Shown here in pieces: positions 17,528 to 39,608 of a stretch of 39,608 nucleotides of DNA (positions within the stretch are counted from its first letter, which is position 1; the number at the start of each line of letters is the position of its first letter). The translations under genes were made by a program, and so were the position numbers. The notes beneath the pieces were generated by a model. That model saw only the letters and a program-made list of their open reading frames with translations. It did no database searches and was not told the origin of the DNA. Source of the DNA: a virus; IMG/VR virus record IMGVR_UViG_3300020421_000061, positions 1-39,608 of that record. One strand, 5' to 3'.

Positions 17528-17541
17528 TAACCTACATACTC

Positions 17542-17555
17542 CATATTTATAAATG
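17542..17555 (+). promoter_or_regulatory. Putative late promoter before tape-measure unit
   Basis: CATATTTATAAATG, 33 bases before the ATG at 17589. A palindrome GTAATATTAC (17555-17564) overlaps its last base. Confidence 0.45.
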
Positions 17556-17588
17556 TAATATTACGTTTCAATTATACAGGAGCTTATC

Positions 17589-17834: not shown

Positions 17835-17843
17835 GGGTAAACC

Positions 17844-20207: not shown

Positions 20208-23086
20208 TGGCACTTAAAGATTTTGATTTATCGAAAATATCCAAGTTTTCTTATGGAACAGTAAATGCAAATAAGAAAGTTGGACAGTCTTTTAGAGACG
20301 GACACTCTGAAGGTGTAGTTACTGGTGTAAAAAATGTTATAGAAAATAAATTTATTTCTGCAAACAATTCAGAATGGCCAAATCAACAGTTAGTTTCTGG
20401 AAGAATTGGAGCTAGAGAAGCCTCACCACCTCAAGGAGTTGGATCTAAAGATAACCCACAAACCTTTCTAGTCAATAATGCAGCTGGTGAAAGAGAAATA
20501 ACTGGAATACAAGGATCTATAACGTTTGATGGTAACGATGACTTGATTTCAAAAAGTTTAATTATGAGTACAATGAACGATCAGTTGACAAGTGGAACAC
20601 TTAGATCGTATGATATGGCTGTAATAAACAGCAACCAAATGGGTTGGAGACAGATTCCAATAGGTTTTAGAGATTTTGGAACAACGTCTTTAGAAGATCT
20701 GCCAGATAAAATATCAGGTGATGCATCATTTCCAGGATTTACAGTACTTCAAGCAAATCCACAATGGACAGATGGACATGTTAGTAACTATACAGATATA
20801 ACAACTCTTAATTCATGGTATGGACGATTTATAAACAAGTTCGTAAACCTATCCAGTGATCAGGTGATGAGAGGAAGTGGTATAGTCGGTGATACGTTTT
20901 CTCAATTTGATTCATTAAGCTTTCCAATAGGCTTCAGTCCTGGTATAAGAGCTATAACTTTTGGAAATCTAGTAGAAAAACCAAGCTATACAAAACAAGT
21001 AAATTTTGTTGGAGGAGTATATCCAAATACAGGAAAATTAAGGTATGTAGATTCAAATCTTGAGGACAGGTTAACATTTAATCCTGGTGATTTCAATGGA
21101 GATTCTGATTTTGTACCAGAAGACGGAAATAAAATGTTGTATTTGTATGATAAATTCATAATGAATGCAAATGAGATGAGATTTGGAAGAGCGTTTAACG
21201 ATATAGTAATTGATTCAATATTTGGTGATAGGTTCCCATTGGTTCCTGGTCAAAATTTAGTTAGATCTGCACACATTCAATCTTTAGAAACTGATAAGTT
21301 TAAATTTAACCCAGCTTTCCCTGATGTATCATCAGTAAATTATTATAGTGGAGAAAGAGGAGATTCTGACGAAGTTGCACAATTATATGCAGGAAAGAAT
21401 CAAGTTTATTTTGATGGACAAAGTAGATTGTATAGGCATCCTATTGCTGATACACAATCAGATAATCAATATAATGTTTTTGTATATGACCAATTAAGTG
21501 ATAGGTTTAATGCATCTTATAATGCTAGCGCTGAATTTACAGATCAGGCAGGAGAAGCAGTAGTAACCAGTTATGTTTCTAGTTTACATAAACAGGGATT
21601 AGAATATTCTGTTCCCGTTGGAACTCCAGTTGCAGGTGAAGGTGGAAATAGTGCAGATGTAACAGGGTTGAATTTTAGCCCATTTACTTTTTTCAGCAAA
21701 TCACCTGGTCAAGCTAAAACATTTAATATAAAGGGTACAAAGGAGTTTGATTTAAGACGGCAAAATGACGGTACTTTAGAAGACAGGTTATCAATGTCAA
21801 ATCAAGTTAATGAGAAACCAGTTGGAGCAGAGAATGTACATCCAACACTTGCTTCGTTTGTAACCGATAGACAAGTTGGAGACCCAATTGACGAGTTTTC
21901 TCAAGAAATAAGCATGGTTCCAGGTGCCGCAGGAACAGGAAACACAGTACCATTAGAAGATTTTCAAGTAACAAATGCGTCGTCTATTCATAGAACTCCA
22001 ATAAATTTAACATTGATGGACAAATATTCATCATTAGCCTATCCTGTTTTAGGTGTTGATGATGGCTCAGATACTATAGATCCAAATGGTGCAAGATCTA
22101 TAATGTATGATAAGACATTAAGAAGTGCAGGTGAATTAAACGAGACCATAGATGTCAAGTTTGGTGGTAGTGGACAATCAGATAGATCCCCAGGGTTAGA
22201 GGCACAAAGTCATCCAAAAGGACGTGGAGCTAGAGATAGAGCACAAAAAATAGTTTATAATATTGGAAGAAGCGATCACGGTGCAGTACAGGTAGTAAAA
22301 GACGAGATTATGAATGTACCAGGAAGATTCGAAACTGGAGCGATAAAGGTAGATGTAGATGGAAAAGCAATATCTAAGTTGACAACTAACGTTGATAAGA
22401 TTAACGCAATACCATATGGTGGAGATGACAAGCAAAACGAAGCCGCGTTTAATTCTGCAGATAAGGATGATTTTGTACCATTAGTATTTTATGATGTTTT
22501 CAATAAAAAGAATATTGTTTTTAGAGCAATATTTGAAGGTGACATTACAGACACAGTAACACCAGACTATAATCCAGTTGGTACAATTGGACGACCAAAT
22601 AAGGGAGCAGTTTATGGTGGAGTAGACAGGAAAATATCCTTTGGATTTCAATTGTATCCAAAAACAAAACAAGAATTTCCAATCATGTTAGAAAAACTAA
22701 ATTACTTGGTTGGATTATGTTATCCAAATTTGGATGACTATTATAGAATGTCAGCACCCATGATAAAATTAACTTTAGGTGATATTTTTAGAAGACAGCT
22801 CGGGTATTTGACAACATGTACAGTTACGTTTCCATCTGAAAGTGATTGGGAAATAGAAAGAGGTTTGAGATTTACAAAACTAATAAAGGTTCAAGTAGAT
22901 TTTGATTATATCGGTGGACAAATACCTATCTCTACTGGTAAACATTATAGTTTAGGATGGTTAGATGGGACTAAACTTCCAGATGCAGATCCAATTAGGG
23001 TAACAAATGGTGGAAACGAAACATCAGTAAGTTTACCAAATGTGGGAAAGATATTTGATGAAGCCAAAGATATGGTAGGAAGCTAA
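20207..23086 (+). CDS. Large baseplate protein with tube-initiator-like C-terminal domain
   Basis: 959 residues. The C-terminal 170 residues (FPIMLEKLNYLVGLCYPNLDDYY...PMIKLTLGDIFRRQLGYLTTCTVTF...WEIERGLRFTKLIKVQVDFDYIG) follow the pattern I associate with tail-tube-fold baseplate proteins such as T4 gp48 and gp54, which cap the hub and start tube polymerisation. Those T4 proteins have about 320-360 residues, so roughly 780 residues here are extra, Asp/Asn/Gly rich and probably beta, without family match. Position right after the tape measure agrees with the T4 order (29-48-54). The exact gp48 or gp54 equivalence is open. Confidence 0.6.
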   Translation: MALKDFDLSKISKFSYGTVNANKKVGQSFRDGHSEGVVTGVKNVIENKFISANNSEWPNQQLVSGRIGAREASPPQGVGSKDNPQTFLVNNAAGEREITGIQGSITFDGNDDLISKSLIMSTMNDQLTSGTLRSYDMAVINSNQMGWRQIPIGFRDFGTTSLEDLPDKISGDASFPGFTVLQANPQWTDGHVSNYTDITTLNSWYGRFINKFVNLSSDQVMRGSGIVGDTFSQFDSLSFPIGFSPGIRAITFGNLVEKPSYTKQVNFVGGVYPNTGKLRYVDSNLEDRLTFNPGDFNGDSDFVPEDGNKMLYLYDKFIMNANEMRFGRAFNDIVIDSIFGDRFPLVPGQNLVRSAHIQSLETDKFKFNPAFPDVSSVNYYSGERGDSDEVAQLYAGKNQVYFDGQSRLYRHPIADTQSDNQYNVFVYDQLSDRFNASYNASAEFTDQAGEAVVTSYVSSLHKQGLEYSVPVGTPVAGEGGNSADVTGLNFSPFTFFSKSPGQAKTFNIKGTKEFDLRRQNDGTLEDRLSMSNQVNEKPVGAENVHPTLASFVTDRQVGDPIDEFSQEISMVPGAAGTGNTVPLEDFQVTNASSIHRTPINLTLMDKYSSLAYPVLGVDDGSDTIDPNGARSIMYDKTLRSAGELNETIDVKFGGSGQSDRSPGLEAQSHPKGRGARDRAQKIVYNIGRSDHGAVQVVKDEIMNVPGRFETGAIKVDVDGKAISKLTTNVDKINAIPYGGDDKQNEAAFNSADKDDFVPLVFYDVFNKKNIVFRAIFEGDITDTVTPDYNPVGTIGRPNKGAVYGGVDRKISFGFQLYPKTKQEFPIMLEKLNYLVGLCYPNLDDYYRMSAPMIKLTLGDIFRRQLGYLTTCTVTFPSESDWEIERGLRFTKLIKVQVDFDYIGGQIPISTGKHYSLGWLDGTKLPDADPIRVTNGGNETSVSLPNVGKIFDEAKDMVGS

Positions 23087-23395: not shown

Positions 23396-26293
23396 ATGCC
23401 TAATCAATTTGTAAACATAAATAAAAAAATTCAACACGGCTTGAACCAAAGAGTGAAGGCTATGAATTCGTTTGGAGGTGATCCATTACTAAGAACACTT
23501 GGAGACGAAATAATGAACGATCCATTGGGTTCTGTTCAAGATGAAGGTTATGAATTAAGTATGGAACAACAAATGGTAAAAACGCCATTTGCCAGAATCA
23601 TATCACCAGGTGAATCTAGTACTGAAGTATTATACGGAACATTTAATCATACGTTTGATCAAGAACTGGGTACTTCAGATGAGTCTTCAGGTGTGGATGC
23701 ATTTAAATCATTGGGTGATAGTATAAAACCTAGCGAACAAGCATATTATAATTTTGACGTTGATAAGAAAAGAGATGGAATGGATTTTGGTAAACCAAGA
23801 CCAGGAATAGAAAGTATAGCTATAGATTATCAAGGATACGGTGGAGCTATAAGAAAGGCGACAATTGCTATTAACATATTTTCGCTTGCAGATTTAGAAA
23901 AATATACAAACAACTCTATACTATCGATTGGACGAAACTTAATAGTTGATTGGGGATGGGTTAGAGGAAGTAGCTCATCTGAGTTTCAGATACCTACACT
24001 TTTAAATTTAGAAGAAGATGGAAAATTATCGTTACGTAAAAGTTTATTTTTCCCAGTTGTAAATGCGCAAACTAAAAAAATAGAAAAGCCTGCTGAATTT
24101 AGGGAATTACCATTTGATTATTATGGAGACTGGGGAGGATTGTTTGGTAGAGTTATGTCATCTACATGGTCTACAAATGGAAGCGTTTTTCAATGTACGG
24201 TAGAAGTATTGGCAAAAGGTAATAATGTGTTCCAAAAAATAATGGATAACTCAAAGCCAAATAAGCAAGTGTATTCCATGCCGTCTAGACCAGCTGAAAA
24301 CATAGACAAATATGTTGAAGCCACAACTAAAGATAAAGACGGTTCTTTAGATACAAGAACTCATAATATTGTTGAAAGAATAAAACAGCTTGATATGGAA
24401 ATATTAATGAAGATGTTTTCTGATACAAAAATTGGCGTATTTGGAAATGAATGGGATGAAGCTATAGATATAGTAAACGAATCTGGTGGTGAAATACTTG
24501 TTTCAGAATGTGAAAACATAGTCATGATGGTTGCACCAGATCCTTCAAGTACAGTTACACCAGAGCTACTAGATACTGAGGGATTAAGTGATACTCAAAT
24601 AAAGTTCAATGCATTTTCAGGATTAACAAAACAAATTTGGATTAGATGGGGATGGTTTGAAGATAATGTTGTTTGTTATTATGCAAAATCTGCAATACTA
24701 GAAAAGAAAACTGGTAATGTAATGAAGGAAGCAGAATTTAGATCTATACAGGAAGTCAATGGAGAATTGGTATCAGTAAAAATATCAAATGATGAAGAGC
24801 TGTATACACATACTCCAAGTGCATTTGTTATACCTGGACAATATAAATCAGAGTGGTTTCCAACATCTGAAGTTAGCAATCAGTTGAAAGAAGACCCAGC
24901 TACTTTATATAAACAACTAGCAGATACGTTTAACGGACTAAAGTTTCAATTTGCAGTTGATAGTAAAAAACAGCAAGGATATTTGAGAAACATGTATGTT
25001 AATTACAATCAGATAAAAAGTTCATTCGTTTCTCCAGGTTCCAGTATAGAATCGGGAATGATGAAGCTTGCAAATTCATTGAATACACGATTAGATTTTT
25101 GGGACTTTGAAGTAGAAAGCAAAGAACTAAATACTTCTTGCTTATTGACGGTTTCTATAATAGAAAAGGACAATGTTTCTGAAGAAAACGAGGGATTGTC
25201 AGAAGAGTTAGACCCAAAAAAGTCATTTATATTTGACAATTATGGTATGAATTCTCTAATTCAGGAAACAACATTGGAAATGTCTGTACCAGATAAGTTT
25301 GCAACATCTATAGGATTAGGCGCAAATACAGACTCTGCTATAGAAGGAACAGACGCAGATTCAATAGCAAAATATTTAAAAGAACAAAGATCAAACGACG
25401 AAGGTGATGAGGAAGACCAATACGTTAGGTTGGCAAAAATGTTTAATGATTCTCAAAACATATCAGAAATACAGGATAAATTGGAAAACGATAATGCTAA
25501 TCAAAATCCAATAAACATTGGAGAATTGGAAATAGGGCCAGATCCAATAGTTACGGAAATTGTAGATTCTGTAAAGTCAAAAGCAACTACTGGAGGGTTT
25601 GATCACAACTTACAAGGTTTTCCAATTGTTAGCACAGAAGAACAAATGCAAGCAGAATTATCTAAAAAGATTCAAGCAGAAGTACAGAAAACATCAGCTG
25701 TATTTGAGATAGGTCAAAAAAATGGAGCTATTAATATTGATATAGGTGGAACAAGTGTGTCTATAAGTAAAGTTCAGGGAATAGGTATATTGGATCCTAC
25801 GGATTCGGAAAATAAAGAGTTTGCAAAAGCTTTGCCAGGACAGGGATACAATTACGATTCTACTGGACAATTGAGACAAAATGCATTGAATTACCTAAAA
25901 TTTATGTTTGAAGAATCACCGATATCAAGAAAGAAAAGCGATACGTATAAGTTAACATTACCTTTAGAGGTTTCCATTACATTAGATGGTTGTTCTGGCT
26001 TGACAATAGGAAACATGTTCAGACTCTCAAACATTCCTGAAAAACCCTACAATCAGTATTCGTTAGATCCTTCTACGTATTTTTATGTTAGTGGTTTACA
26101 GCATAATGTACAGTCAACAAGTTGGACTACTACAATAACTGGAAAATTAGATAGGGTTAGAAATGGAGAATTAGATCCACTATCAAGAATAACTAGGGAA
26201 AATAAAGTTGCCATACGTCAAAAACTAAAAGAGCAGTTTAGTAAAAACTTAAAAAGATTTTTAGATTTACAGAGTGCAGAGGAAGAAGATTAA
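23396..26293 (+). CDS. Large baseplate/hub-like structural protein
   Basis: 965 residues. Recognisable stretches are QGYGGAIRKATIAINIFSLADLEKYTNNSIL...NLIVDWGW, a second WIRWGWFEDNVV, and a C-terminal part LPLEVSITLDGCSGLTIGNMFRLSNIPEK...FYVSGLQHNVQSTSWTTTITGKLDRVR. The last resembles late-control (gpD) or gp44-type hub domains, where such an end closes a beta barrel. The repeated DWGW/RWGW motif suggests two related domains. No lysozyme motif is visible. A central hub or wedge role is inferred from context between the LysM protein and the end of the tail block; the family is not certain. Confidence 0.55.
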   Translation: MPNQFVNINKKIQHGLNQRVKAMNSFGGDPLLRTLGDEIMNDPLGSVQDEGYELSMEQQMVKTPFARIISPGESSTEVLYGTFNHTFDQELGTSDESSGVDAFKSLGDSIKPSEQAYYNFDVDKKRDGMDFGKPRPGIESIAIDYQGYGGAIRKATIAINIFSLADLEKYTNNSILSIGRNLIVDWGWVRGSSSSEFQIPTLLNLEEDGKLSLRKSLFFPVVNAQTKKIEKPAEFRELPFDYYGDWGGLFGRVMSSTWSTNGSVFQCTVEVLAKGNNVFQKIMDNSKPNKQVYSMPSRPAENIDKYVEATTKDKDGSLDTRTHNIVERIKQLDMEILMKMFSDTKIGVFGNEWDEAIDIVNESGGEILVSECENIVMMVAPDPSSTVTPELLDTEGLSDTQIKFNAFSGLTKQIWIRWGWFEDNVVCYYAKSAILEKKTGNVMKEAEFRSIQEVNGELVSVKISNDEELYTHTPSAFVIPGQYKSEWFPTSEVSNQLKEDPATLYKQLADTFNGLKFQFAVDSKKQQGYLRNMYVNYNQIKSSFVSPGSSIESGMMKLANSLNTRLDFWDFEVESKELNTSCLLTVSIIEKDNVSEENEGLSEELDPKKSFIFDNYGMNSLIQETTLEMSVPDKFATSIGLGANTDSAIEGTDADSIAKYLKEQRSNDEGDEEDQYVRLAKMFNDSQNISEIQDKLENDNANQNPINIGELEIGPDPIVTEIVDSVKSKATTGGFDHNLQGFPIVSTEEQMQAELSKKIQAEVQKTSAVFEIGQKNGAINIDIGGTSVSISKVQGIGILDPTDSENKEFAKALPGQGYNYDSTGQLRQNALNYLKFMFEESPISRKKSDTYKLTLPLEVSITLDGCSGLTIGNMFRLSNIPEKPYNQYSLDPSTYFYVSGLQHNVQSTSWTTTITGKLDRVRNGELDPLSRITRENKVAIRQKLKEQFSKNLKRFLDLQSAEEED

Positions 26294-26920: not shown

Positions 26921-26940
26921 TTTTATATATATTATAAATG
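26921..26940 (+). promoter_or_regulatory. Late-promoter-like motif touching the polymerase start codon
   Basis: TTTTATATATATTATAAATG; the final ATG is the only in-frame start of the next gene. Elsewhere the same motif stands 10-50 bases upstream of a start. There is no ribosome binding site in this gap. Confidence 0.4.
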
Positions 26941-28239
26941 GTTATAGAATTTAAAGATCAATACAACGATCTACTCAAACGTATATCTGGCCAAGAAGTT
27001 ACCGCAGTCGCAATACGTCAAGACTTTAGACTTCATCCTTGTTCGAGTAGCACAACATGTATAGCTATATGTTTCAATGGACAAACATATTACATACTAT
27101 CCAACCATTCAGAATCTTTAGGCGACAATTTAGATATATCAAAACTTTCTTGTGTAAAAAGGTTTTGGGTAGATGATCTAAAACAGTTTTATCATTTGAC
27201 TGGGTTTGAAAGGTTATATGATATTAAAATGATGGGGTGGGTTAACGATATAGAATATGAAGATGTCCCAGTTTCAGAAGCATTTAGGGCAATACATTTA
27301 AGGTCACAGAATGATCATAGAGCAAACGAAATTGTACCTATTGTAAAGTTGAAAGAACACTGTTATGATAGGTTGGTATCGATGACATTGGCTAGAGATT
27401 CTATGAAGGTAACAAGACCATTTGTAAAATATAACGGTTTGCTATTAGAAATGGCAAAATTAGAAGGTACTGGTATAGGAATATCTGATGGGTATTTTGA
27501 TAAAGTTTTTAGTGGTGACACTGCACATTCTAACTATAATTTTTATACGTCTACTGGTAGACCTTCAAATACATTTGGTGGAATAAATTTTGGAGCACTA
27601 AATAAGAGTGATGGTGTACGAAAGGGAATAGTTCCTAAAAATGGTGGAATGCTAGTAGAGTTTGATTATGATGCGTATCATCTTAGATTGTTGGCTAATT
27701 TAGTAGGTTGGGATTTTCCACTGGATAGAGACGTACACCAATATTTTGCAGATGAAGTCTACAAGTGCTCATATGAAGAAGCAAAAACAAAATCTTTTCA
27801 GATACTATATGGACAAGTTCCATCTTCAGAAGACAATACATCATTCTTTTGGGCAGTAAATGAGTTATCCAAAACTTTAGAACACTATTTTAAAGCAAAC
27901 AAATGTTTCAATTCTCATATTTATAAGAAACCATTTTATTTGGCTGGTCAAAGTGACGTCAACAGGAATAAGTTGCTCAACTATTACATTCAGTCTTTTG
28001 AAACAGAACGAAATGTAGATGTAATTAAGAGCATACACAAGTATCTGAGGAGCAAGGAAACATCAATGATTTTGTATACGTATGATAGTTTTTTATTCGA
28101 TTTCAAAGTCTCTGAGGGGTTACAAACGTTATCCTCTATAAAAGAACTACTTGAAAAGGATGGATTTCCTGTAAAGGCAAAAGCTGGTAGTAATTACCAT
28201 GAGTTACAAGATATAACGGAGAAGTTACGTGGATCTTAA
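26938..28239 (+). CDS. Family A DNA polymerase, short divergent form
   Basis: 433 residues. The palm and fingers of Pol I are visible: TSTGRPSN---INFGALN---VRKGIVP, motif A FDYDAYHLRLLAN (D243), motif B with K283, F287 and Y291 at the spacing of Pol I K758, F762 and Y766, and motif C as Y382-D383-S384 in place of His-Asp-Glu. The Arg of the O-helix is Tyr. The N-terminal 190 residues look like a worn 3'-5' exonuclease domain: CIAICFNGQTYYIL is present, but the DxE and YxxxD metal sites are not evident. Both polymerase metal Asp residues remain, so activity is possible, but proofreading is doubtful. T4-like phages normally carry family B gp43, so this may be a replacement or a second, repair-type polymerase. 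No ribosome site precedes the ATG. Confidence 0.8.
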   Translation: MVIEFKDQYNDLLKRISGQEVTAVAIRQDFRLHPCSSSTTCIAICFNGQTYYILSNHSESLGDNLDISKLSCVKRFWVDDLKQFYHLTGFERLYDIKMMGWVNDIEYEDVPVSEAFRAIHLRSQNDHRANEIVPIVKLKEHCYDRLVSMTLARDSMKVTRPFVKYNGLLLEMAKLEGTGIGISDGYFDKVFSGDTAHSNYNFYTSTGRPSNTFGGINFGALNKSDGVRKGIVPKNGGMLVEFDYDAYHLRLLANLVGWDFPLDRDVHQYFADEVYKCSYEEAKTKSFQILYGQVPSSEDNTSFFWAVNELSKTLEHYFKANKCFNSHIYKKPFYLAGQSDVNRNKLLNYYIQSFETERNVDVIKSIHKYLRSKETSMILYTYDSFLFDFKVSEGLQTLSSIKELLEKDGFPVKAKAGSNYHELQDITEKLRGS

Positions 28240-30397
28240 AAAAATAATAAGTGATGCAATCGATAATGTATCATATAGAACGACAAACGGTATGGTGGAT
28301 TTAAACGATCCATATCATTTGCACGAAGTACAATTAGAATTAAAAAAATATCTGGACCCAAATACAGTTGAAATGGTATTGTATGAGAAGGATAAGGAAA
28401 AGCAACCACCACTAGACGATGCAGGCAAAAAAGAAAAAGAAAAATTAGGGTTGATTTGGAAAGGTCAAGGTTATGGTAAAGAGAACGAAGATGGTATAAC
28501 ACATAAAAATGATGGTGGAAAATTAGTTAAAATAGAAAAGGATGTGGACAAAAAGGACGATAAAACAGGAAGCATCTTTAAAGATAAAGAACAAGATTCT
28601 AAAGACGTTGTAAGAAATAAAGACTATGACGCTAAAAATGCAGATTGGCAACCTGAAGGTGGAAACCAAGAAAAAGCAGTAAAAAGAACAGCTGATAAGT
28701 TGAGAAATGCTGTCAGTCAAATACCGTTTGAATCAGAAGAAGACGAAGCTGCAACCAATAGAGTTATATCTAACATAGAAAATGGTGATCCTATTGATCC
28801 AAAAGATTCAGAAGTTTTTAACAAATACATAAGAATTAAAGAAACCGGTGGACAGTCAAATCCAGAATTTGCATTTTACATTTCTAATACAGCAGCTGGT
28901 GATTTTAGACAGGGACGAAGAGTAAAGGTAGAAATGGGTACTGGTCAAAATGGTCATATGGTAAGAAGGAAGTTAGAGGCTCAAGGTATACAAGCTGCAA
29001 GTGCATCTACCACTGCCGGAAAGGTACCACCAAAACTTTCTGGAAAGATAATGACCATGACTAAAATAGCCCAAGATAAGGGTGGAGGAATAGTAGAGCA
29101 TAAAGTCAAAAAGACTAGAAATGCAGATGGTCAAATAGAATCTGTGACAGTTGGTGGAAGAACGATAAAAAGAATTCCAGAACCAGATAGAAAAGAATTA
29201 GAAGCTCAAGGAATGTCCGAAAAGGATATTAACAAAAAGATTGCTACCATAAAAAGAAACAATAAAATGGTAGATCAATATGAAAACATTGATCAGGTTG
29301 AAGAAGCACGATTGGTTAAGGGTGCAGATACTAGCACAAAAGAAGGAAGAGAAAAAACTGCAAAAGAAGGTCCAGTAGTTATGGCTGATTCTATTCGGGC
29401 TCATATGGAAAAAGCTGGCCCATTAACAAAAGCTGAAGAAGCAATGTTAGATCGGATGAAAGCATTAGGAGACATCGAAGATCCAGAAGAATATGAAAGA
29501 GAAGCAATGAAAATGTTATCCGATATGCAAAAAATTGAGAGTATGAGAAAGGGTGTTCCTGATGTAGCTGAAGCGATAATTATGTGTGTAATGAACAAGA
29601 AGGGACTAGATTGTGTGGCACCAGCTGGAGAAACATATAAGGTTGCAGATTTAATTGTGTTCCCTCCAAAAGACAATCCAGAAGATCCAAACTCTGCAGA
29701 ATATATAGTCTTTTTAGAAAGTACTGGTGGATTGAGTGTTAAGTGGAAAGGTGGAGCTGCTTCGGGTGCCAGAGCTAAAGTAGAAGTTACCGCATTTAAG
29801 AGCGAAGAAACACAGGGAAGATTAACAAAAATTTTAGATCTACATAATAATTTTATGGGTACATCAAAGCAACCATTAACAAGAAAAAGAATAGATAGTG
29901 GTAAAGCTGAGTTAGATAAGCAAGAACAATGGGCACGTCAAAATGGTATGTTATCTGATGATGATTTTGGAGATGATGGATCATTAATAATTCCAGGATC
30001 AAAGGGTAATAGAACGACAAAACAGTGGGCAAATGATTCAATAGCTGATTGGCAAAGTAAAGGTAAGTTACCACCAGACTGTACCCCAACATTAAAACAA
30101 AGTGGAATAGAATGCCTAACAAAGGAAAATAAAGCTTTACTAGTAGATTCACTAGACCAATATTGTAGAGGTGGAATAATGTTGGCAAAGATTCATAATA
30201 AAGATTTAGAGTATCAACCGTATGGAAATGCAAATGGAACAGCTGATGCATTAGAGTTATCAAATGGAATAGATTGTGTTAATCACATGCATTTTCAACC
30301 AAATCCTGGGTTTGATTTTACTAAAGACAAAGACGGAAATAACATAGTAAGACCTAACGCGGTTTATGCTGGACATTTGGAGAAGGTGTGTGATTAA
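28229..30397 (+). CDS. Large charged protein, possible nuclease-like C-terminal domain
   Basis: 722 residues. The start is GTG with GGAGAAG four bases upstream, inside the polymerase gene (11-base overlap). The first 450 residues are Lys/Glu/Asp rich, low in hydrophobics and probably flexible or helical. From about residue 450 a globular domain appears: GLDCVAPAGETYKVADLIVFPP..., then IVFLESTGGLSVKWKGGAASGA. An Asp, then Glu, then VKWK arrangement can fit a PD-(D/E)xK nuclease core, and I recall similar proteins as conserved unknowns in T4-like phages. The last part has several Cys (CTPTLKQSGIEC, YCRGG, IDCVNH). Function is unknown; the nuclease idea is weak. Confidence 0.6.
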   Translation: MDLKKIISDAIDNVSYRTTNGMVDLNDPYHLHEVQLELKKYLDPNTVEMVLYEKDKEKQPPLDDAGKKEKEKLGLIWKGQGYGKENEDGITHKNDGGKLVKIEKDVDKKDDKTGSIFKDKEQDSKDVVRNKDYDAKNADWQPEGGNQEKAVKRTADKLRNAVSQIPFESEEDEAATNRVISNIENGDPIDPKDSEVFNKYIRIKETGGQSNPEFAFYISNTAAGDFRQGRRVKVEMGTGQNGHMVRRKLEAQGIQAASASTTAGKVPPKLSGKIMTMTKIAQDKGGGIVEHKVKKTRNADGQIESVTVGGRTIKRIPEPDRKELEAQGMSEKDINKKIATIKRNNKMVDQYENIDQVEEARLVKGADTSTKEGREKTAKEGPVVMADSIRAHMEKAGPLTKAEEAMLDRMKALGDIEDPEEYEREAMKMLSDMQKIESMRKGVPDVAEAIIMCVMNKKGLDCVAPAGETYKVADLIVFPPKDNPEDPNSAEYIVFLESTGGLSVKWKGGAASGARAKVEVTAFKSEETQGRLTKILDLHNNFMGTSKQPLTRKRIDSGKAELDKQEQWARQNGMLSDDDFGDDGSLIIPGSKGNRTTKQWANDSIADWQSKGKLPPDCTPTLKQSGIECLTKENKALLVDSLDQYCRGGIMLAKIHNKDLEYQPYGNANGTADALELSNGIDCVNHMHFQPNPGFDFTKDKDGNNIVRPNAVYAGHLEKVCD

Positions 30398-31272: not shown

Positions 31273-32043
31273 ATGGATATATCAGCCATTAAGGCTAAAC
31301 TTGGTCAACTTCAACAGTCCAACAACCGCACTTCAAACCTTTGGAAACCCACACCTGGAAAAACTCAAGTGAGGATTGTACCTTACAAATTCAATAAGGA
31401 TAATCCTTTCATCGAGTTATACTTTCATTATGATATGGGAGATAGATACTATCTTTCACCACAATCATTTGGGCGTCCTGATCCGATTGAAGAATTTGCT
31501 ACTAAACTTAAAACATCTGGAAACAATGATGACTATAAGTTAGGAAAGCGAATTGAAGCCAAAATGCGTACTTTCGCACCAGTAATAGTGCGCGGCGAAG
31601 AGAATGAAGGTGTTAAGTTTTGGGGTTTTGGAAAGACTGTATATCAAGAACTACTTTCAATAATCGCAGATCCAGATTATGGTGACATCACAGATCCAGT
31701 AAATGGTCGTGACATTGTGGTTGAGTTCAAAACCAGTGAAGAAACTGGTAGGTCATTTCCAATGACAACTATTAGGGTAAAACCTAATCAAACTCCAGTA
31801 ACGGAGAAAGCTGATGAGATGAAGACGATGAAGGAAACACAGAAAAATATCACCGAAATCTATAACGAGCTCAGCTATGATGATCTCAATGAAGTTCTCA
31901 AGAACTGGTTGAATCAAGATTCTGGCGTTAAAGATGAAGAAGTCACTACTCCAGTTGAGACTAAAAAGGCAACAAACAATATGCCTTCTCAAGCGGAAGT
32001 ATCAGATGTTTCTTCAGCATTCGACGAGTTATTTAGCAGTTAA
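31273..32043 (+). CDS. 32: Single-stranded DNA binding protein (T4 gp32-like)
   Basis: 256 residues, shorter than T4 gp32 (301). The N-terminal basic segment with KLGQLQQSNN, WKPTPGKTQVRIVPYKFN...PFIELYFHYDMG, FGRPDPIEEFATKL, and GVKFWGFGKTVYQELLSI match the gp32 OB-fold core. The acidic tail ends in SSAFDELFSS, the protein-protein interaction tail that contacts helicase, polymerase and recombination partners. There is no Cys at all, so the zinc site of T4 gp32 is missing. An AGGAG site precedes the ATG. Codon choice is richer in C-ending codons than its neighbours, in line with high expression. Confidence 0.93.
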   Translation: MDISAIKAKLGQLQQSNNRTSNLWKPTPGKTQVRIVPYKFNKDNPFIELYFHYDMGDRYYLSPQSFGRPDPIEEFATKLKTSGNNDDYKLGKRIEAKMRTFAPVIVRGEENEGVKFWGFGKTVYQELLSIIADPDYGDITDPVNGRDIVVEFKTSEETGRSFPMTTIRVKPNQTPVTEKADEMKTMKETQKNITEIYNELSYDDLNEVLKNWLNQDSGVKDEEVTTPVETKKATNNMPSQAEVSDVSSAFDELFSS

Positions 32044-32097: not shown

Positions 32098-33198
32098 ATG
32101 AGCGATAAAAATGCGCTAGCGTCACAGCTAGCAGAAAGCTTAAATCAAAAATTCAAAGGTCAAAAGGTTGCATACTTTCTAGATGGAAAGGATAATACAC
32201 CAACAGACGTTAAGGATTTTATTTCAACAGGTTCATCTTTATTAGATTTGGCAATATCAAATAGACCAGATGGTGGAATAGCTGTAGGAAGAATAACCGA
32301 AATAAATGGTTTATCTTCTACTGGTAAGTCACTATTGGGTGCACATGTATTAGCTGAAACTCAAAAGAAAGGTGGTGTAGCAGTGTATATTGATACTGAA
32401 ACATCAGTTAGTAGAGAGTTTTTACAGGCTATTGGATGTGATGTTGGTAATCTTTTGTATTTACACATTGAAACAGTTGAAGAAATCTTTCAAGCAATAG
32501 AAGATATAATTTTAAAGATACGTGAATCTAGTAAAGACAAACACGTCACAATTTTAATCGATAGTTTAGCAGCTGCTTCAACAAAAGTTGAAATGGAAGC
32601 TGATTACGATAAAGATGGTTGGGCAACTAGTAAAGCCATTATCATATCTAAAGCTATGAGAAAGATTACACAGATGGTTGGAAGACACAAAATTACTCTT
32701 GTGTTTACTAATCAACTTCGTCAAAAGATGGGTGTAATGTTCGGTGATCCATACACAACAAGTGGTGGATTAGCGTTACCTTTTCATTCATCTACAAGAA
32801 TACGACTCAAAAATATGGGTCAAATCAAGGATAAGGAACAAAACGTAATTGGTGTCAAGTGTAGAGCACAGGTTATAAAGAATCGAATTGGTCCACCTAT
32901 GAGAAGTACAGATTACGACATGTATTTTGATAGAGGTATAGATGATGTTGGTGGATGGCTTCAGGTTCTCAAGGAATTAAAAGTCGCAAAAGTGGCTGGA
33001 GCTTGGTATACAATCAATTACAAGGGAGAAGATAAAAAATTCCTCTCTAAAGATTTTGTTTCTATCTTGAAAGAAGATCCAGACTTTAAATCGTATCTCT
33101 ATAAAACAATATGTGATAATAGCATATTGCAATATCAAGAAAATAGAGGTATAGATGATGTTGAATTCACTGACGAAGTGATAGACGAAGATGCGTAA
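32098..33198 (+). CDS. uvsX: UvsX/RecA-like recombinase
   Basis: 366 residues, close to T4 UvsX (about 390). The Walker A is GLSSTGKS (71-78), the catalytic Glu region is VYIDTETSVSREF, Walker B is HVTILIDSLAA, and FTNQLRQKMGVMFGDPYTTSGGLALPFHS matches the L2 DNA-binding loop and following core. It forms filaments on single-stranded DNA for recombination-dependent replication and repair, loaded against gp32. The AGGGG ribosome site can be masked by the upstream RNA element. The gene overlaps the next by 8 bases. Confidence 0.93.
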   Translation: MSDKNALASQLAESLNQKFKGQKVAYFLDGKDNTPTDVKDFISTGSSLLDLAISNRPDGGIAVGRITEINGLSSTGKSLLGAHVLAETQKKGGVAVYIDTETSVSREFLQAIGCDVGNLLYLHIETVEEIFQAIEDIILKIRESSKDKHVTILIDSLAAASTKVEMEADYDKDGWATSKAIIISKAMRKITQMVGRHKITLVFTNQLRQKMGVMFGDPYTTSGGLALPFHSSTRIRLKNMGQIKDKEQNVIGVKCRAQVIKNRIGPPMRSTDYDMYFDRGIDDVGGWLQVLKELKVAKVAGAWYTINYKGEDKKFLSKDFVSILKEDPDFKSYLYKTICDNSILQYQENRGIDDVEFTDEVIDEDA

Positions 33199-34213
33199 GC
33201 GATACGCTGAAATTCTCACTCAGATAGGTCAACAAGTAAACACAAATCAATCCATTAATGACCATGTTTTGGTTGTTGATGGGTTGAACAACTTCATTCG
33301 GGCTTGGTCGGCTTCCCCTGCATCCAACGCGGATGGAGTTCACATAGGTGGGATGATAGGGTTTTTACAAAGCGTAGGCTTTGCAATTAGAACTCTATCA
33401 CCCACTCGTGTAATTATTTGTTTTGATGGTGCTGGAGGATCTCAGAAAAGACGTAAAATTTATGACGGTTATAAAGCACAACGGAAACCATTAAAGACAC
33501 CAAACAGATTTAAAGGTATGCAAGGGTTGGAAGAGCCTTCAGATAGTATGCATAGACAAATTAAAAGGTTATCAGAATATTTGAATGTTTTGCCTCTAAC
33601 ATCTCTGTCAATCGATAACATTGAAGCTGATGATTCGATTGCTTACATTGCAAAATCTGTTTTAAAGGATAGTAAAGTTTCTATTATGTCAACCGATAAA
33701 GATTTTCTACAATTGGTTGATGATAGAATCAATGTTTGGTCTCCAACAAAAAAAGCGTTATATGATAGGAGTAAGATAGCCGAAGAGTATGATATGCTTG
33801 CTGAAAATTTGATTTATTTTAGAATTATAGATGGAGATAAGTCAGATAACATAAATGGTATTAAGGGATATGGATTGAAAACTACTCTCAAAAAAATGCC
33901 ATTTTTGAAAGATAAGATTATATATAATATTGAAGACTTTCTCAAAGAGACTTCAGAATTTGGTTATGTCAATAAAGACGTTTTAACAAGAAATTATAAA
34001 CTAATGCAATTGAGCGATGTTGAAATATCTGGTTCTGCAAAGAGTAAGATATTAAATATAGTTAATGAGGTTCCAAATAGATTGGTAAAATACAAGCTTC
34101 ACAAGATGTTTTTGGAAGATACAATAAATCAGGTTATAAAAAACCCAGATGTTTGGTTGCAGGATACGTTTAACAGATTGGATATGGTGATAAATAATGC
34201 CTCCAATAGCTGA
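33191..34213 (+). CDS. rnh: 5'-3' exonuclease, RNase H/FEN family (T4 rnh-like)
   Basis: 340 residues. Conserved acidic metal-site motifs are in order: VVDGLNN (D30), IICFDGAGGSQKRRKIYDGYKAQR, IEADDSI (E145, D147, D148), STDKDF (D169, D171), and DGDKSDNI (D214, D216, D219) leading into the helix-hairpin region. This is the complete FEN/T4 RNase H catalytic set, so the enzyme should remove RNA primers and flaps during lagging-strand synthesis. It overlaps uvsX by 8 bases and the helicase by 17 bases, a tight replication operon. Confidence 0.9.
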   Translation: MRKRYAEILTQIGQQVNTNQSINDHVLVVDGLNNFIRAWSASPASNADGVHIGGMIGFLQSVGFAIRTLSPTRVIICFDGAGGSQKRRKIYDGYKAQRKPLKTPNRFKGMQGLEEPSDSMHRQIKRLSEYLNVLPLTSLSIDNIEADDSIAYIAKSVLKDSKVSIMSTDKDFLQLVDDRINVWSPTKKALYDRSKIAEEYDMLAENLIYFRIIDGDKSDNINGIKGYGLKTTLKKMPFLKDKIIYNIEDFLKETSEFGYVNKDVLTRNYKLMQLSDVEISGSAKSKILNIVNEVPNRLVKYKLHKMFLEDTINQVIKNPDVWLQDTFNRLDMVINNASNS

Positions 34214-35576
34214 TTCACTTACAAAGTATGGTTCTAGTTTTCAAACTAAAATCATAACATGTTTACTAACACAAGCAGATTTTTTAACTACATGCTATGA
34301 CATGATTCAGCCAGAACAGTTGGACACTGAATCCAAACAGTGGTTGGTTAGAGAAATCAAATCTTATTTTTATGAATATAAAGTTTTGCCTACATTGGAA
34401 ACATTAAAGGTAAAAATACAAGAAATAAAATCTGATATACTGCAACAAACTGTTGTTGATGAACTTAGAGAAGTTACTAAATTAGTCGAGTCTAGTGACT
34501 TAAAGTTTGTAATGAACGAAACTTTAGAGTTTTGCAAAAATCAAGAATTAAAGTCTGCAATAATGAAATCTGTAGACATGCTTCAAAATGGTAGATATGA
34601 TGAAATAAAAAGATTAATCGATAATGCTATGAGAGCTGGAACCAAGCGAGATGTTGGTTTAAATTATATGGAAGAATGGGATTCGATATTAGAAGACATA
34701 GCAAGAGATTGTACTGGAACTGGATTTGAGCCTGTAGATGAAATAACAAATGGTGGTTTAGCAGGTGGTGAACTTGGAATAGTAGTTGCACCTTCTGGTG
34801 TTGGTAAAAGTTGGTTATTGCAAGCGATTGGTGCAAATGCTTTACGATTAGGAAAAAACGTAATACATTATACTTTAGAATTAAATCAAGCATATGTTGG
34901 TTTAAGATATGCAGCTATATTTTCTGGAGTAGAAGCAGCACACATTCCAGATCAAGCTAAAAAAGTAAAAAGCATGGTAGACGAACAGTGTAGAGGTGAA
35001 TTATTAATAAAATATTATCCCACAAGATCTGCTAGCGTTCAAACTATTTATACTCATCTTAAAACTGTAGAATTATTAGGTCATTCACCAGATTTAATTT
35101 TAGTTGATTATGCAGATCTATTAAGTGACACATCTGGTAATGGAGAGATTAGGTTGCAATTGTCTAACATTTATGAAGAGCTACGTGGACTAAGTGGTGA
35201 GTTCGGGATACCAATGTGGACAGCTTCTCAGTCAAATAGAAGTAGTTTAGAAGATTCTGTTATTGGAGCAGAAAAGATTGCTGAATCGTATAATAAGATT
35301 ATGACTGCAGATTTTGTTATGAGTTTATCAAGAAAAATTGAAGATAAAGTTGCGAATACTGGACGTATACACGTAATTAAAAATAGATTTGGTCCAGATG
35401 GGATGACGTTTCCGACATCGATGAACACATCAACAGGTCAAATTAATATTTTCAATTCTGGCACTCAAGATGGTGCAGAAGTTCAAACTAAAATGAATAA
35501 TGGAAATGAGTATGTCAGAAAGTTGCTTAAGAAACGTCATAACGAAATGTTTAGCGAAGAAGACGTTACAAAATAA
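34197..35576 (+). CDS. 41: Replicative DNA helicase (T4 gp41-like, DnaB family)
   Basis: 459 residues, near T4 gp41 (475). The N-terminal helical domain is followed by the RecA-like core: TGFEPVDEITNGGLAGGELGIVVAPSGVGKS with Walker A G201-V-G-K204-S205, DLILVDYADLL as Walker B, TASQSNRSS with the sensor Gln, and a C-terminal NRFGPDGMTF segment with the arginine finger region. A hexamer would unwind the fork on the lagging strand. No clear ribosome site is seen; the 17-base overlap with the nuclease gene suggests coupled translation. Confidence 0.92.
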   Translation: MPPIADSLTKYGSSFQTKIITCLLTQADFLTTCYDMIQPEQLDTESKQWLVREIKSYFYEYKVLPTLETLKVKIQEIKSDILQQTVVDELREVTKLVESSDLKFVMNETLEFCKNQELKSAIMKSVDMLQNGRYDEIKRLIDNAMRAGTKRDVGLNYMEEWDSILEDIARDCTGTGFEPVDEITNGGLAGGELGIVVAPSGVGKSWLLQAIGANALRLGKNVIHYTLELNQAYVGLRYAAIFSGVEAAHIPDQAKKVKSMVDEQCRGELLIKYYPTRSASVQTIYTHLKTVELLGHSPDLILVDYADLLSDTSGNGEIRLQLSNIYEELRGLSGEFGIPMWTASQSNRSSLEDSVIGAEKIAESYNKIMTADFVMSLSRKIEDKVANTGRIHVIKNRFGPDGMTFPTSMNTSTGQINIFNSGTQDGAEVQTKMNNGNEYVRKLLKKRHNEMFSEEDVTK

Positions 35577-35604: not shown

Positions 35605-37617
35605 ATGAGTGATAAATTTACACTTACACCGTCGTTTGTAAAAAAATACCAGAGAAAGTCAGCACCGTTCGGTTTTAATGGTCTAGGAGAAATGGTATAC
35701 ATGAGAACATATTCTAGAATCAAAGAAGACGGTAAAAATGAAATGTGGTGGGAAACAGTTAGAAGAGTTGTTGAAGGCACATACACAATGCAAAAAAAGC
35801 ATATCGATTCAAATCAATTGGGTTGGAATGCATGGCAAGCACAAAGATCAGCACAGGATATGTACGATAGAATATTCAATATGAAATTTTTACCACCTGG
35901 ACGTGGACTGTGGGCAATGGGAACAGAAATGACAGAAGAACGTGGATTGTATGCTGCGTTAAATAATTGTGCGTTTGTTTCAACGGATACATTAAAGGAC
36001 GATTTAGCCAAACCATTTTGTTTTCTTATGGACGCATCAATGTTGGGTGTAGGTGTTGGTTTTGACACTAAAGGTGCAGAAAAAATAATTATAAAGGGTA
36101 TAGATAAGGGTAAAAATGAACAAACGTTTGTTATACCAGATAGTAGAGAAGGTTGGGTTGAATCGTTAAAAATGCAGCTAGAAAGCTATTTTATGGGTAC
36201 AGCAGCAATATCGTTTGATTATTCTGAAATACGAGAAGAAGGTGCACCAATTAAAGGATTCGGTGGAGTTTCTAGTGGACCAGCACCGTTAGAAGAGTTA
36301 CATAAAGCTGTTATGGATATTTTAGAAAAAAATACTGGTGAACCAATAACAATAACAACAATTGTAGACATAATGAACTTAATTGGTAAATGTGTCGTGG
36401 CTGGTAATGTGAGAAGAACAGCCGAGATTGTATTTGGTGAGCCAGATTCTGAAGAATATTTAGATTTAAAAAATTATGATGTTAATCCACATAGAGATCA
36501 ATATGGCTGGACATCAAACAATTCAATATTTGCAGAATTAGGAATGGATTATACTGAAGCTTGTAAAAGAGTTGTAGATAATGGGGAACCTGGTTTTGCA
36601 TGGTTAGATAATATGAGAAAATATTCTCGCATGAAAAATGGCGGAGATAATAAGGATCATAGAGTTGCAGGCGGTAATCCGTGTTTAGAGCAATCATTGG
36701 AGAGTTATGAGTTATGCTGTTTGGTTGAAACATTCCCAAACAATCATGATTCGTTTGAGGATTATGCTAGAACTCTTAAGTATGCGTATTTATATGCGAA
36801 AACTGTTACTTTGGGTCGTACACATTGGCCAGAAACAAACAGGGTAATGTTACGTAATAGAAGAATAGGATGTTCAGTTAGTGGAATAGCACAATTTATA
36901 ACATCAAGAGGAATAGACAGTTTAAAGGATTGGTTAAATGATGGATATGGAGTCATACAAACTTGGGATAAAATGTATTCAGATTGGTTTGCAGTACCAC
37001 GTTCCATTAAAACTACTTCTGTTAAACCTTCTGGCACCGTTTCATTATTGGCTGGCGCTACTCCAGGCTTGCATTATCCCGAGTCTAGGTTTTATATTAG
37101 ACGTATTAGATTAAGTAATAGCTCTCCATTGATTGCACCATTAGAAAAAGCAGGATACAAAATAGAGCCTGCTTTTGGATCAGAAGAAACTACTAGTGTA
37201 GTTGAAGTTCCAGTAGACGTTGGAGAAGGAATACGAACAGTATCAGATTTAACCGTATGGGAACAATTTAGTTTAGCTGCTTTTATGCAAAGACATTGGG
37301 CAGATAATCAAGTTAGTTGTACAGTTACGTTTAATCCTGAAACTGAAGGACCACAACTTCCTCATGTATTAAATTATTTTCAATATCATCTTAAGGGCAT
37401 AAGTTGCTTACCTAGACATGATTTTGGTGCATTTCCACAAATGCCATATGAATCTATAGACGAAGAAACTTATGATAAATTACTTAAGGGATTGGGAAGA
37501 TTAAGTTTTAGACAAGTAAAAGGGAATGAAGCGGAAGTTGATAAGTTTTGTAACAATGATGTTTGTGAAATAATCCCCACAGCCGGTGATAAAGACGATC
37601 AGGAATATGCAAACTAA
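35605..37617 (+). CDS. Adenosylcobalamin-dependent class II ribonucleotide reductase
   Basis: 670 residues, similar in kind to the monomeric Lactobacillus leichmannii triphosphate reductase. Key residues by comparison: C122 in LNNCAF and C371 in ELCCLVET as the reducing pair, C360 and E362 in NPCLEQ for thiyl radical and proton transfer, and C649-x4-C654 near the C terminus as the shuttle pair. The C360 to C371 spacing of 11 matches the reference enzyme. It makes deoxynucleotides for phage replication using vitamin B12, so the host must make or import B12. T4 itself uses a class I enzyme. AAGGAG precedes the ATG, and helicase is the gene before. Confidence 0.92.
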   Translation: MSDKFTLTPSFVKKYQRKSAPFGFNGLGEMVYMRTYSRIKEDGKNEMWWETVRRVVEGTYTMQKKHIDSNQLGWNAWQAQRSAQDMYDRIFNMKFLPPGRGLWAMGTEMTEERGLYAALNNCAFVSTDTLKDDLAKPFCFLMDASMLGVGVGFDTKGAEKIIIKGIDKGKNEQTFVIPDSREGWVESLKMQLESYFMGTAAISFDYSEIREEGAPIKGFGGVSSGPAPLEELHKAVMDILEKNTGEPITITTIVDIMNLIGKCVVAGNVRRTAEIVFGEPDSEEYLDLKNYDVNPHRDQYGWTSNNSIFAELGMDYTEACKRVVDNGEPGFAWLDNMRKYSRMKNGGDNKDHRVAGGNPCLEQSLESYELCCLVETFPNNHDSFEDYARTLKYAYLYAKTVTLGRTHWPETNRVMLRNRRIGCSVSGIAQFITSRGIDSLKDWLNDGYGVIQTWDKMYSDWFAVPRSIKTTSVKPSGTVSLLAGATPGLHYPESRFYIRRIRLSNSSPLIAPLEKAGYKIEPAFGSEETTSVVEVPVDVGEGIRTVSDLTVWEQFSLAAFMQRHWADNQVSCTVTFNPETEGPQLPHVLNYFQYHLKGISCLPRHDFGAFPQMPYESIDEETYDKLLKGLGRLSFRQVKGNEAEVDKFCNNDVCEIIPTAGDKDDQEYAN

Positions 37618-37634
37618 TTTTACACAAAAAGCGG

Positions 37635-37668
37635 ACAGGCAGACGGCACACCTGTAGAAAAATGTGCC
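37635..37668 (+). ncRNA. Candidate H-type RNA pseudoknot in the receptor 5' leader
   Basis: Stem 1: ACAGG (37635-37639) with CCTGT (37651-37655). Stem 2: GGCACA (37645-37650) with TGTGCC (37663-37668). Loop 1 is 5 bases, the stems stack directly, and loop 3 is AGAAAAA, an A-rich strand as found in triplex-forming pseudoknots. There is no following T tract, so it is not a standard terminator. It lies between the reductase stop (37617) and the receptor ribosome site (37686-37692). Each stem may also form alone as a simple hairpin. Confidence 0.5.
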
Positions 37669-37698
37669 ACTTACTAATCAAAAGCAAGGAGACAGATT

Positions 37699-39608
37699 AT
37701 GAACTATCGTAATCTTGCTGTATTATTATTACTCTCAACTGGTTTGTTTGCGCAAACTATGGTAGGAGTAGTATTAAATGCAGACTCAGAACCACTTGTT
37801 GGAGCTAATGTAGTAGTTGAAGAAACAGATATTGGAGGAGTTACCGATTCAGAAGGTAAATTCCAAATAGATGTCGTTTCTGGGGACTATGACGTTACGG
37901 CTTCCTTCATTGGTTATGTTCCTATCACTAAATCAGTTAGTGTTGGGGATATCGTTTCAAGCGTTAATTTCTTTTTAGAAACTGACGTTGTTGCAATGAC
38001 AGCATTAGAAGTTTTGGCTTCACGTGCTGACGAGAACACACCTGTTGCTTATACTACGGTTGAAAAAGCTGAAATGGAAATAAGACTTGGTTCACAAGAT
38101 ATTCCAATGGCTCTTAATATGACACCGTCAGTATATGCGACACAACAAGGTGGAGGTGCGGGTGATGCTCGTATCAACGTTCGCGGGTTTAACCAAAGAA
38201 ATGTTGCTGTTATGATTAATGGTGTTCCTCAAAACGATATGGAAAACGGTTGGGTTTATTGGTCCAATTGGGATGGAGTAGCAGATGCTGCCAATTCTAT
38301 TCAGATGCAAAGAGGTCTATCAGCAGTCAATCTAGCAACACCTTCTATAGGTGGAACTATGAACATAATAACAGATCCTGCTGGTCACGAAAAAGGTGGC
38401 AAGTTTAAGCAGGAAGCTGGAGCTGGTGGTTTTATGAAGACCACTTTGAACTACAACTCAGGTCTTATTAACGATAAGTTGGCTATTAGTGGAACTATCG
38501 TTCGTAAAACAGGAGATGGAATCATTGATGGAACTTGGACAGATGCTTGGGCTTACTATTTAGGGTCAAGTTATGCTGTTAGTGACAAACAACGATTCGA
38601 ACTATACGCTATTGGTGCACCACAGCGTCATGGTCAAAATCTATACAAGCAGAATATAGCGACTTACTCGCAAGATCTAGCAGGAGACATTGATGGTTAT
38701 AATGACTCTGCTTATGTTGCAGGTGAGAAGTTTGAAACTGAAGCTGGTAGATTGTTTAACCAGAACTGGGCACCTGTGGATGAATCCTATAAAGGCAAAC
38801 AGTATTTTTATATGTATGGTGCAAACACTGCAGATAGAATGAATGCTGGTATGCTTAATGAAAGGGAAAATTACTTCCACAAGCCTCTTGTCAATTTAAA
38901 CCACTTTTTAACTTTAAATGACAATGCAAGATTAAGTTCAGTACTATATTGGAGTGGTGGCTCTGGTGGAGGAACTGGAACTTATGGTAGCGTAAGTAGA
39001 ACACCCGCGGTAGAAGGAGAAAGATGGTATGCATCTTCACCCTGGCAATGGGATTGGAATGCTGAGATAGCACAGAACTCTGCTAATGTAGATTCTGCTT
39101 TTTCAGATACAGAAAATCGCTCAACAGGAATCCTTCGTAATTCAATTAATCGTCAAAACACTTATGGATTAATTTCTAAACTTAATTATGATGTATCAGA
39201 TGAGTTAGAAATTCAAGTAGGTATTGATTGGCGAACTGCTGAAATAGAACATGCGCGTGAAGTACGTGATCTACTTGGTGGTGATTATTATGTAGATTAT
39301 GCAGACGACAATGCCGAAGACGGTAAAATTGTTCGTTTAGGTGATGAAATCGCATACTTTAACACTACAACAGTAGACTGGTTTGGTAGTTTTGCACAAG
39401 GTAAGTACACAACTGACAAAATGAGTTTATACGGTATGGGTGGTTTATCCACTATAGCTTATTCTTATCAAGACCACTTTACAGTGCTAAATGAGAAGAT
39501 TAAAGCTGACCCGATTACTACATTTCAGTTAAAAGGTGGTGCTACTTACAATTTAGATGATCGTATGTCTGGATTTGTTAATTACGGATACGTTCAAAAG
39601 CCGCCAAT
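37699..39608 (+). CDS. TonB-dependent outer-membrane receptor with carboxypeptidase-regulatory-like N-terminal domain (3' partial)
   Basis: 636 codons are visible and the frame is open to the window end. Residues 1-19 are a signal peptide (basic start, LAVLLLLSTGLFA). Residues about 22-95 form a CarboxypepD_reg-like beta domain (GANVVVEETDIGGVTDSEGKF...GYV). ALEVLASRA near 102-110 may serve as the TonB box. The plug domain (about 115-228) has INVRGFNQRNVAVMINGVPQNDMENG and LATPSIGGTMNIIT, and barrel strands follow. AAGGAG stands seven bases before the ATG. The layout is typical of Bacteroidota and related phyla, where such receptors import siderophores, B12, glycans or peptides. It follows a B12-dependent reductase with the same strand. 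A receptor gene in a T4-like phage is unexpected; a chimeric assembly must be excluded. Confidence 0.88.
   Translation, partial: MNYRNLAVLLLLSTGLFAQTMVGVVLNADSEPLVGANVVVEETDIGGVTDSEGKFQIDVVSGDYDVTASFIGYVPITKSVSVGDIVSSVNFFLETDVVAMTALEVLASRADENTPVAYTTVEKAEMEIRLGSQDIPMALNMTPSVYATQQGGGAGDARINVRGFNQRNVAVMINGVPQNDMENGWVYWSNWDGVADAANSIQMQRGLSAVNLATPSIGGTMNIITDPAGHEKGGKFKQEAGAGGFMKTTLNYNSGLINDKLAISGTIVRKTGDGIIDGTWTDAWAYYLGSSYAVSDKQRFELYAIGAPQRHGQNLYKQNIATYSQDLAGDIDGYNDSAYVAGEKFETEAGRLFNQNWAPVDESYKGKQYFYMYGANTADRMNAGMLNERENYFHKPLVNLNHFLTLNDNARLSSVLYWSGGSGGGTGTYGSVSRTPAVEGERWYASSPWQWDWNAEIAQNSANVDSAFSDTENRSTGILRNSINRQNTYGLISKLNYDVSDELEIQVGIDWRTAEIEHAREVRDLLGGDYYVDYADDNAEDGKIVRLGDEIAYFNTTTVDWFGSFAQGKYTTDKMSLYGMGGLSTIAYSYQDHFTVLNEKIKADPITTFQLKGGATYNLDDRMSGFVNYGYVQKPP

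Follow-up and report, generated by a model that had tools for sequence, protein, structure and literature searches.

A TonB-dependent receptor lineage with a conserved pseudoknot RNA leader in the DNA replication region of T4-like marine phages

INTRODUCTION

Why should a T4-like phage carry a gene for an outer membrane receptor among the genes that copy its DNA? Phage-encoded nutrient uptake has been described mostly for periplasmic or inner-membrane steps, such as that of PstS, together with single SusC-like genes of megaphages. The window analyzed here is the entire virus record IMGVR_UViG_3300020421_000061 of IMG/VR (39608 bases), the end of which falls inside the gene in question. A first-pass annotation had noticed this gene as a TonB-dependent receptor encoded beside T4-like replication genes, and had offered nutrient supply, replacement or masking of the host receptor, or exclusion of later phages as its possible uses. 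Our preferred answer, which we regard as an even call, is that the gene encodes a functional TonB-dependent importer that was captured from Marinimicrobia (SAR406) and is kept by T4-like marine phages, with a nucleic acid-derived compound as the best guess for its substrate.

THE RECEPTOR GENE IN ITS PHAGE SETTING

The window carries T4-like structural genes (tail fibers, sheath, tube, and baseplate) and a series of replication genes on the plus strand, which encode, in this order, a gp32-like single-stranded DNA-binding protein (31273–32043), a UvsX/RecA-like recombinase (32098–33198), a 5'-3' exonuclease (33191–34213), a DnaB-like replicative helicase (34197–35576), and a class II (adenosylcobalamin-dependent) ribonucleotide reductase (35605–37617; TIGR02505 above cut-off), followed by the receptor. 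This context and the Pfam domains described below agree with the first-pass annotation, as does the position of the receptor on the same strand, with its start codon 81 bases 3' of the reductase end (37617 to 37699). The class II, B12-dependent reductase differs from the class I enzyme of T4. It is an ordinary phrog_367 member, like the class II ribonucleotide reductases of other phages, while its identity to isolate phages in the collection compared is at best 47%. Elsewhere in the window, a 433-aa protein (26938–28239) has weak similarity to family A DNA polymerase, although the polymerase encoded behind the receptor in relatives is a T4-like enzyme of family B. Large proteins encoded at 20207–23086, 23396–26293, and 28229–30397 have no PHROG match.

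The first 636 codons of the receptor gene are present in the window (37699–39606, plus strand, ATG start), compared with ~910 codons in relatives; the frame stops at 39606 because the virus record itself terminates there. A strong Shine-Dalgarno sequence, AAGGAGA, lies at 37686–37692. A putative signal peptide, MNYRNLAVLLLLSTGLFAQ (37699–37755), was recognized by eye from its hydrophobic start and its AQ ending. It is followed by an N-terminal carboxypeptidase-regulatory-like domain (37765–38001; Pfam CarbopepD_reg_2, 4e-16), a TonB-box-like motif, EVLASRA (38008–38028), which does not vary among the 69 distinct full-length copies from phages, and a plug domain (38032–38358; Pfam Plug, 3e-14, above cut-off), the fold of which was confirmed in the model of a relative with 91% identity. 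The start of the beta barrel (38404–39606), mapped from the full-length relative L006, is cut by the contig end. The earlier description of the gene as intact as far as seen accordingly stands for the N-terminal domain, the plug, and the ribosome site; its signal peptide is a reading by eye, and its barrel is incomplete.

RECURRENCE OF THE JUNCTION IN VIRAL CONTIGS

A window that stops inside the receptor gene invites the suspicion of an assembly or binning artefact, or of host DNA that was packaged accidentally. When viral contigs were scanned, 318 stretches with relatives of the receptor and 502 with relatives of the reductase came to light, derived, judging from their identifiers, from >50 separate JGI metagenomes. 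The receptor was the next gene in 96 of the 99 distinct reductase contigs that extend far enough downstream, usually after a gap of 43–116 bases, with a glutamine synthetase gene in between in three contigs. Seen from the other side, the gene upstream of the receptor in 136 distinct receptor contigs encoded the reductase in 119, a glutamine synthetase in 4, and a membrane protein near an Hsp20 gene in 7. In longer relatives, the receptor is followed either by T4-like DNA polymerase B, sliding clamp, and clamp loader genes (the latter two identified by reading their sequences) or by tRNA-Ala and thymidylate synthase genes. The first-pass annotation had proposed looking for the same junction in independent phage contigs and for what comes after the receptor, and had named a chimeric contig, or host genes only downstream, as outcomes that would overturn it; the recurrent junction with phage genes on both sides excludes both. 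The RNA leader described below is confined to phages, and the receptor lineage is separate from nearly all cellular copies, which likewise speaks against an artefact. We therefore give this explanation next to no probability, and the phage-borne TonB-dependent receptor is confirmed as real.

The receptor is kept nearly always in this place, but it is not indispensable. The related phages L082, L138, and L139 retain the reductase without the receptor. In L082, the reductase of which is 91% identical to that of the window, the site is empty (2929–3125), and reductase, tRNA-Ala(TGC), and thymidylate synthase genes follow one another without receptor or leader, while L006 has the same tRNA-Ala and thymidylate synthase genes after the receptor. 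Since the gene order is otherwise equal, the receptor is cargo in a defined slot. In a second genomic location (L239, L246, L247, L275, L298, L300, and L312), the receptor follows a gene for a ~280-aa membrane protein near an Hsp20 gene, and the leader is present there too, which indicates that gene and leader move together. The glutamine synthetase (PF00120) found between reductase and receptor (L025, 6541–7622; L099, 12026–13009; L117; L265) is possibly a second nutrient-related gene in the same slot. An 82.7 kb viral contig without the reductase (L074) also carries the receptor, in a region (7890–19023) with sulfotransferase/glycosyltransferase, DAHP-synthase-family, and type IV pilin-like genes.

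A PSEUDOKNOT LEADER UPSTREAM OF THE RECEPTOR

The first-pass annotation had passed over an RNA element that accompanies the receptor gene. In the window this element of 34 nt occupies 37635–37668 on the plus strand, 64–31 nt before the receptor start codon, and reads ACAGG-CAGAC-GGCACA-CCTGT-AGAAAAA-TGTGCC. Stem 1 pairs 37635–37639 with 37651–37655 (ACAGG with CCTGT), stem 2 pairs 37645–37650 with 37663–37668 (GGCACA with TGTGCC), and an A-rich loop 3 (AGAAAAA) lies at 37656–37662; the helices interleave, with loops of 5, 0, and 7 bases. Only one of 115 phage leaders inspected lacks the pseudoknot. Among 89 distinct sequences, 98.0% of the cells are paired, double changes occur at 6 of the 11 pairs (three per helix), and the double-changed cells number 55 as against 9.0 in shuffles, while sliding the partners by 1–3 bases lowers the pairing to 18–56%. 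These compensatory changes support the two interleaved helices of an H-type pseudoknot. The mean major-base frequency is 0.90 in the element, 0.47 in its 5' flank, and 0.59 in the spacer; the distance from the element end to the start codon has a median of 29.5 bases, and the spacer to the Shine-Dalgarno sequence a median of 18 nt, with 52% A and 6% G.

The association between leader and receptor is nearly exclusive. A covariance model found exactly one strong copy per receptor locus tested, except for a degenerate version in L146, and matched the receptor leader as the only site in the window; there was no copy in the receptor-less relatives L082, L138, L139, and L141 and no significant match in 54 cellular loci. 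When all viral contigs were scanned with a pattern of the element, 111 of the 112 matches lay before a receptor start, and the remaining one was cut off after a receptor-like MKSR. A known riboswitch was rejected as the identity of the leader: no Rfam family matched at gathering score, and what appeared at the permissive threshold of E ≤ 10 belonged to unrelated families and stayed sub-threshold. The gene 32 leader was considered as the site of a second copy, which was not found in the window, and the gene 32 leaders inspected from these phages contain no copy of the receptor pseudoknot; a crude scan for interleaved stems was positive in 29 of 59 gene 32 leaders as against 15 of 115 shuffled receptor leaders, in low-complexity sequence that gives chance matches. 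In the resources searched, the leader RNA appears to have no earlier description. It probably tunes receptor synthesis at translation, and it could also affect how stable the mRNA is. A phage protein operator, for which the gp32-like protein is a candidate ligand, and a metabolite riboswitch seem about equally likely functions.

CONSERVATION AND PREDICTED FOLD OF THE RECEPTOR

The full-length receptor comprises 905–942 aa in 97 contigs with a stop codon, and the alignment of the 69 distinct phage copies contains 368 identical columns. With a median pairwise dN/dS of 0.13, the phage receptor is under strong purifying selection. Conservation among phage copies is 1.00 in the TonB-box-like motif, 0.95 in the plug, 0.852 in the barrel strands, and 0.845 in the loops. 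The EVLASRA motif is largely kept in cellular homologues too, and the terminal F908, a C-terminal aromatic residue as used in outer-membrane insertion, is invariant in the phage alignment A1. At the thresholds used, there were no phage-specific fixed residues departing from the Marinimicrobia consensus.

An AlphaFold model of full-length L006, which is 91% identical to the receptor of the window, reached a pLDDT of 84.5 and a pTM of 0.81 with a deep alignment of 86 sequences, as against a pLDDT of 53.6 with phage sequences alone. In this model, a large C-terminal barrel is predicted to enclose the plug. Foldseek matched the model to Fiu, PqqU/YncD, FhuA, and FecA with a probability of 1.00, at 10–15% identity. 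Among viral structures there was one real receptor match, SusC of an uncultured marine phage (A0A8D9FQQ5), at 12% identity. Membership in the SusC/RagA subfamily itself was rejected, as the TIGR04056 score of 67.5 bits is far under the cut-off of 368.25, and no SusD partner was found among the phage downstream genes or, in cells, among the families listed for the genes next to the receptor.

ORIGIN AND LIKELY HOST

The closest cellular homologues belong to Candidatus Neomarinimicrobiota (SAR406), with up to 69% identity, followed by those of Calditrichia, Ignavibacteria, and Bacteroidetes (45–51%). Trees place the phage copies in a single, strongly supported group within the Fidelibacterota/Marinimicrobia sequences, with L151 as the single cellular exception; phage monophyly without this exception was rejected, as the AU test gave p = 0.0004 against placing L151 outside the phage clade. 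L151 (986–3736) is a receptor gene on a 4.3 kb Marinimicrobia MAG contig, with no leader and a second receptor gene adjoining, and it may represent a transfer back from phage to host or a mis-binned piece. Since the phage receptors are nested in Marinimicrobia homologues, the gene derives from such bacteria, and from this origin we infer Marinimicrobia as the phage host. The chromosomal receptors of Marinimicrobia (L151–L175) are full-length homologues with 51–69% identity, the same domains, and the same TonB-box-like motif, but unlike the phage copies they have a chromosomal setting and no pseudoknot leader upstream. The phage gene is thus host-derived as well as stably kept in the phage genome, as an auxiliary gene should be. 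One further leader-carrying record, IMGVR_UViG_2785510770_000044 (L387), has an identifier that differs in form from those of the other contigs, which belong to metagenomes; it may stem from an isolate or a single cell that was sequenced, in which case it might reveal the host.

SUBSTRATE CLUES FROM CELLULAR HOMOLOGUES

In other phyla of the FCB group, the next co-directional gene encodes a nucleotide pyrophosphatase/phosphodiesterase (PF01663) in 16 of 43 loci (L179, L185, L190, L195, L206, L209, L210, L212–L214, L216, L219, L222, L225, L227, and L228), in homologues that share only ~46–52% identity with the phage receptor and for the most part are not from Marinimicrobia. In 12 such genomes, a search with PF01663 found one gene each near 300 bits, which is the adjacent gene where coordinates are comparable, and the adjacent protein resembles Xanthomonas NPP and human/animal ENPPs. 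Receptor and pyrophosphatase/phosphodiesterase would constitute a two-gene uptake unit across several phyla, one that is apparently undescribed. PF01663 enzymes cleave other phosphodiesters too. In Marinimicrobia themselves, a deoxynucleoside kinase gene lies directly 3' of the receptor in two genomes, and a strong S1/P1 nuclease gene lies 2–5 genes from it in two; these links are few and were noticed after the fact. Together with the reductase, thymidylate synthase, and polymerase setting in phages, the neighbors of the homologues point, by association, to a nucleic acid-derived substrate, and a nucleotide, nucleoside, or related phosphodiester product is the best-supported guess. The position of the receptor away from the reductase in some phages weakens the nucleotide context as proof.

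PROPOSED FUNCTION AND ITS RIVALS

Taken together, gene, context, conservation, origin, predicted fold, and the leader structure read from covariation are directly supported, and the following course of events is proposed on top of them. The receptor would be made during infection together with the DNA replication genes, its synthesis being tuned at translation by the leader, exported by the Sec and BAM machinery of the host, and energized by host TonB-ExbBD. The infected cell would then keep or gain uptake of one nutrient while phage DNA is copied, and a nucleic acid-derived import would feed the pathway of reductase, thymidylate synthase, and DNA polymerase. A fuller version of this proposal, in which a dedicated importer for nucleic acid breakdown products takes up nucleotide material from lysed neighbors for phage DNA, and the novel phage-specific pseudoknot sets translation by sensing a ligand or a replication protein, seems to us possible and rather doubtful as a whole.

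Much the same evidence would be expected of a working importer of some other nutrient (an iron complex, peptide, sugar, or phosphate ester), kept because infected cells lose or dilute the host receptor. All evidence of the transport type is neutral with respect to the substrate. Siderophore and PQQ transporters head the fold matches (at the low identity given above), and the receptor is retained even in positions other than after the reductase; against this, the sole recurrent cellular gene partner found is the nucleotide pyrophosphatase/phosphodiesterase. We treat this alternative as tentative, though one to be taken seriously. Cobalamin, in contrast, is very unlikely as the substrate. An importer of cobalamin for the adjacent B12-dependent reductase would agree with the class of that enzyme and with the almost invariant adjacency of the two genes, but related phages retain the reductase without the receptor, and in others the receptor lies at a different place in the genome. 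Control of the host homologue by a cobalamin riboswitch, the mark of a BtuB-type transporter, was not observed: no such riboswitch lies near the phage or the host receptor at Rfam thresholds. A single cobalamin riboswitch occurs elsewhere in 10 of 12 Marinimicrobia genomes, and what it precedes in the eight regions retrieved is a TonB-dependent receptor of another type (664–706 aa), usually with a DUF5074-type propeller next. Taken together, the riboswitch findings make B12 improbable.

Phages frequently enter through TonB-dependent receptors, and the lipoprotein Llp of T5 blocks FhuA; 8a60, a solved structure of that complex, is among the fold matches. The receptor could accordingly serve in competition between phages, as a decoy or by replacing or masking the host receptor, and so exclude later phages. 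We consider this unlikely. A decoy needs neither a plug nor a TonB motif, whereas the TonB-box-like motif is invariant, the external loops are not diversified relative to the strands, and phage-specific fixed residues were not seen. Of the three uses first suggested for the gene, a working importer is hence favored over a decoy by purifying selection, the invariant motif, the conserved loops, and the lack of fixed phage changes, with masking, or a second role in excluding other phages, left as a lesser possibility; we prefer the importer because the parts needed for energized transport are the ones most strictly kept.

COMPARISON WITH KNOWN SYSTEMS

With this receptor, a widespread lineage of marine phages nearly always carries a predicted active importer of the outer membrane, encoded inside the DNA replication region. 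It offers a concrete target for the question of whether phages make a dying cell go on feeding through its outer membrane. The host to which it points is Marinimicrobia, a phylum that is abundant and uncultured. The leader RNA is conserved, occurred beside no other gene in the searches, and provides a route to the substrate or the regulator that is independent of host culture.

The translational operator of T4 gene 32 consists of a short pseudoknot and, behind it, an unstructured stretch that includes the ribosome site (PMC535899). The receptor leader is alike in having a short pseudoknot and then an A-rich, G-poor spacer to the ribosome site, but differs in its sequence and loop lengths and in preceding a receptor gene rather than gene 32.

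A SusC-like TonB-dependent receptor was reported in single genomes, those of the marine megaphage Mar_Mega_1 and of megaphage LR745206, and was proposed to be an auxiliary metabolic gene for nutrient uptake (PMC9723777). In the open-licence literature on phage TonB-dependent receptors, this report was the only one found, and it does not concern the present lineage. Like the megaphage SusC (PMC9723777), the receptor described here is a TonB-dependent receptor on a marine phage, and it is a new lineage of this known kind of auxiliary gene. It is nevertheless distant from the known examples, with ~12% identity to marine phage SusC A0A8D9FQQ5 in the fold match, and 23–27% identity to the LR7565xx/LR745206 megaphages over only 27–41% of the query. 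Unlike the megaphage SusC, it is widespread and fixed as a lineage among T4-like phages, and it has an RNA leader of its own.
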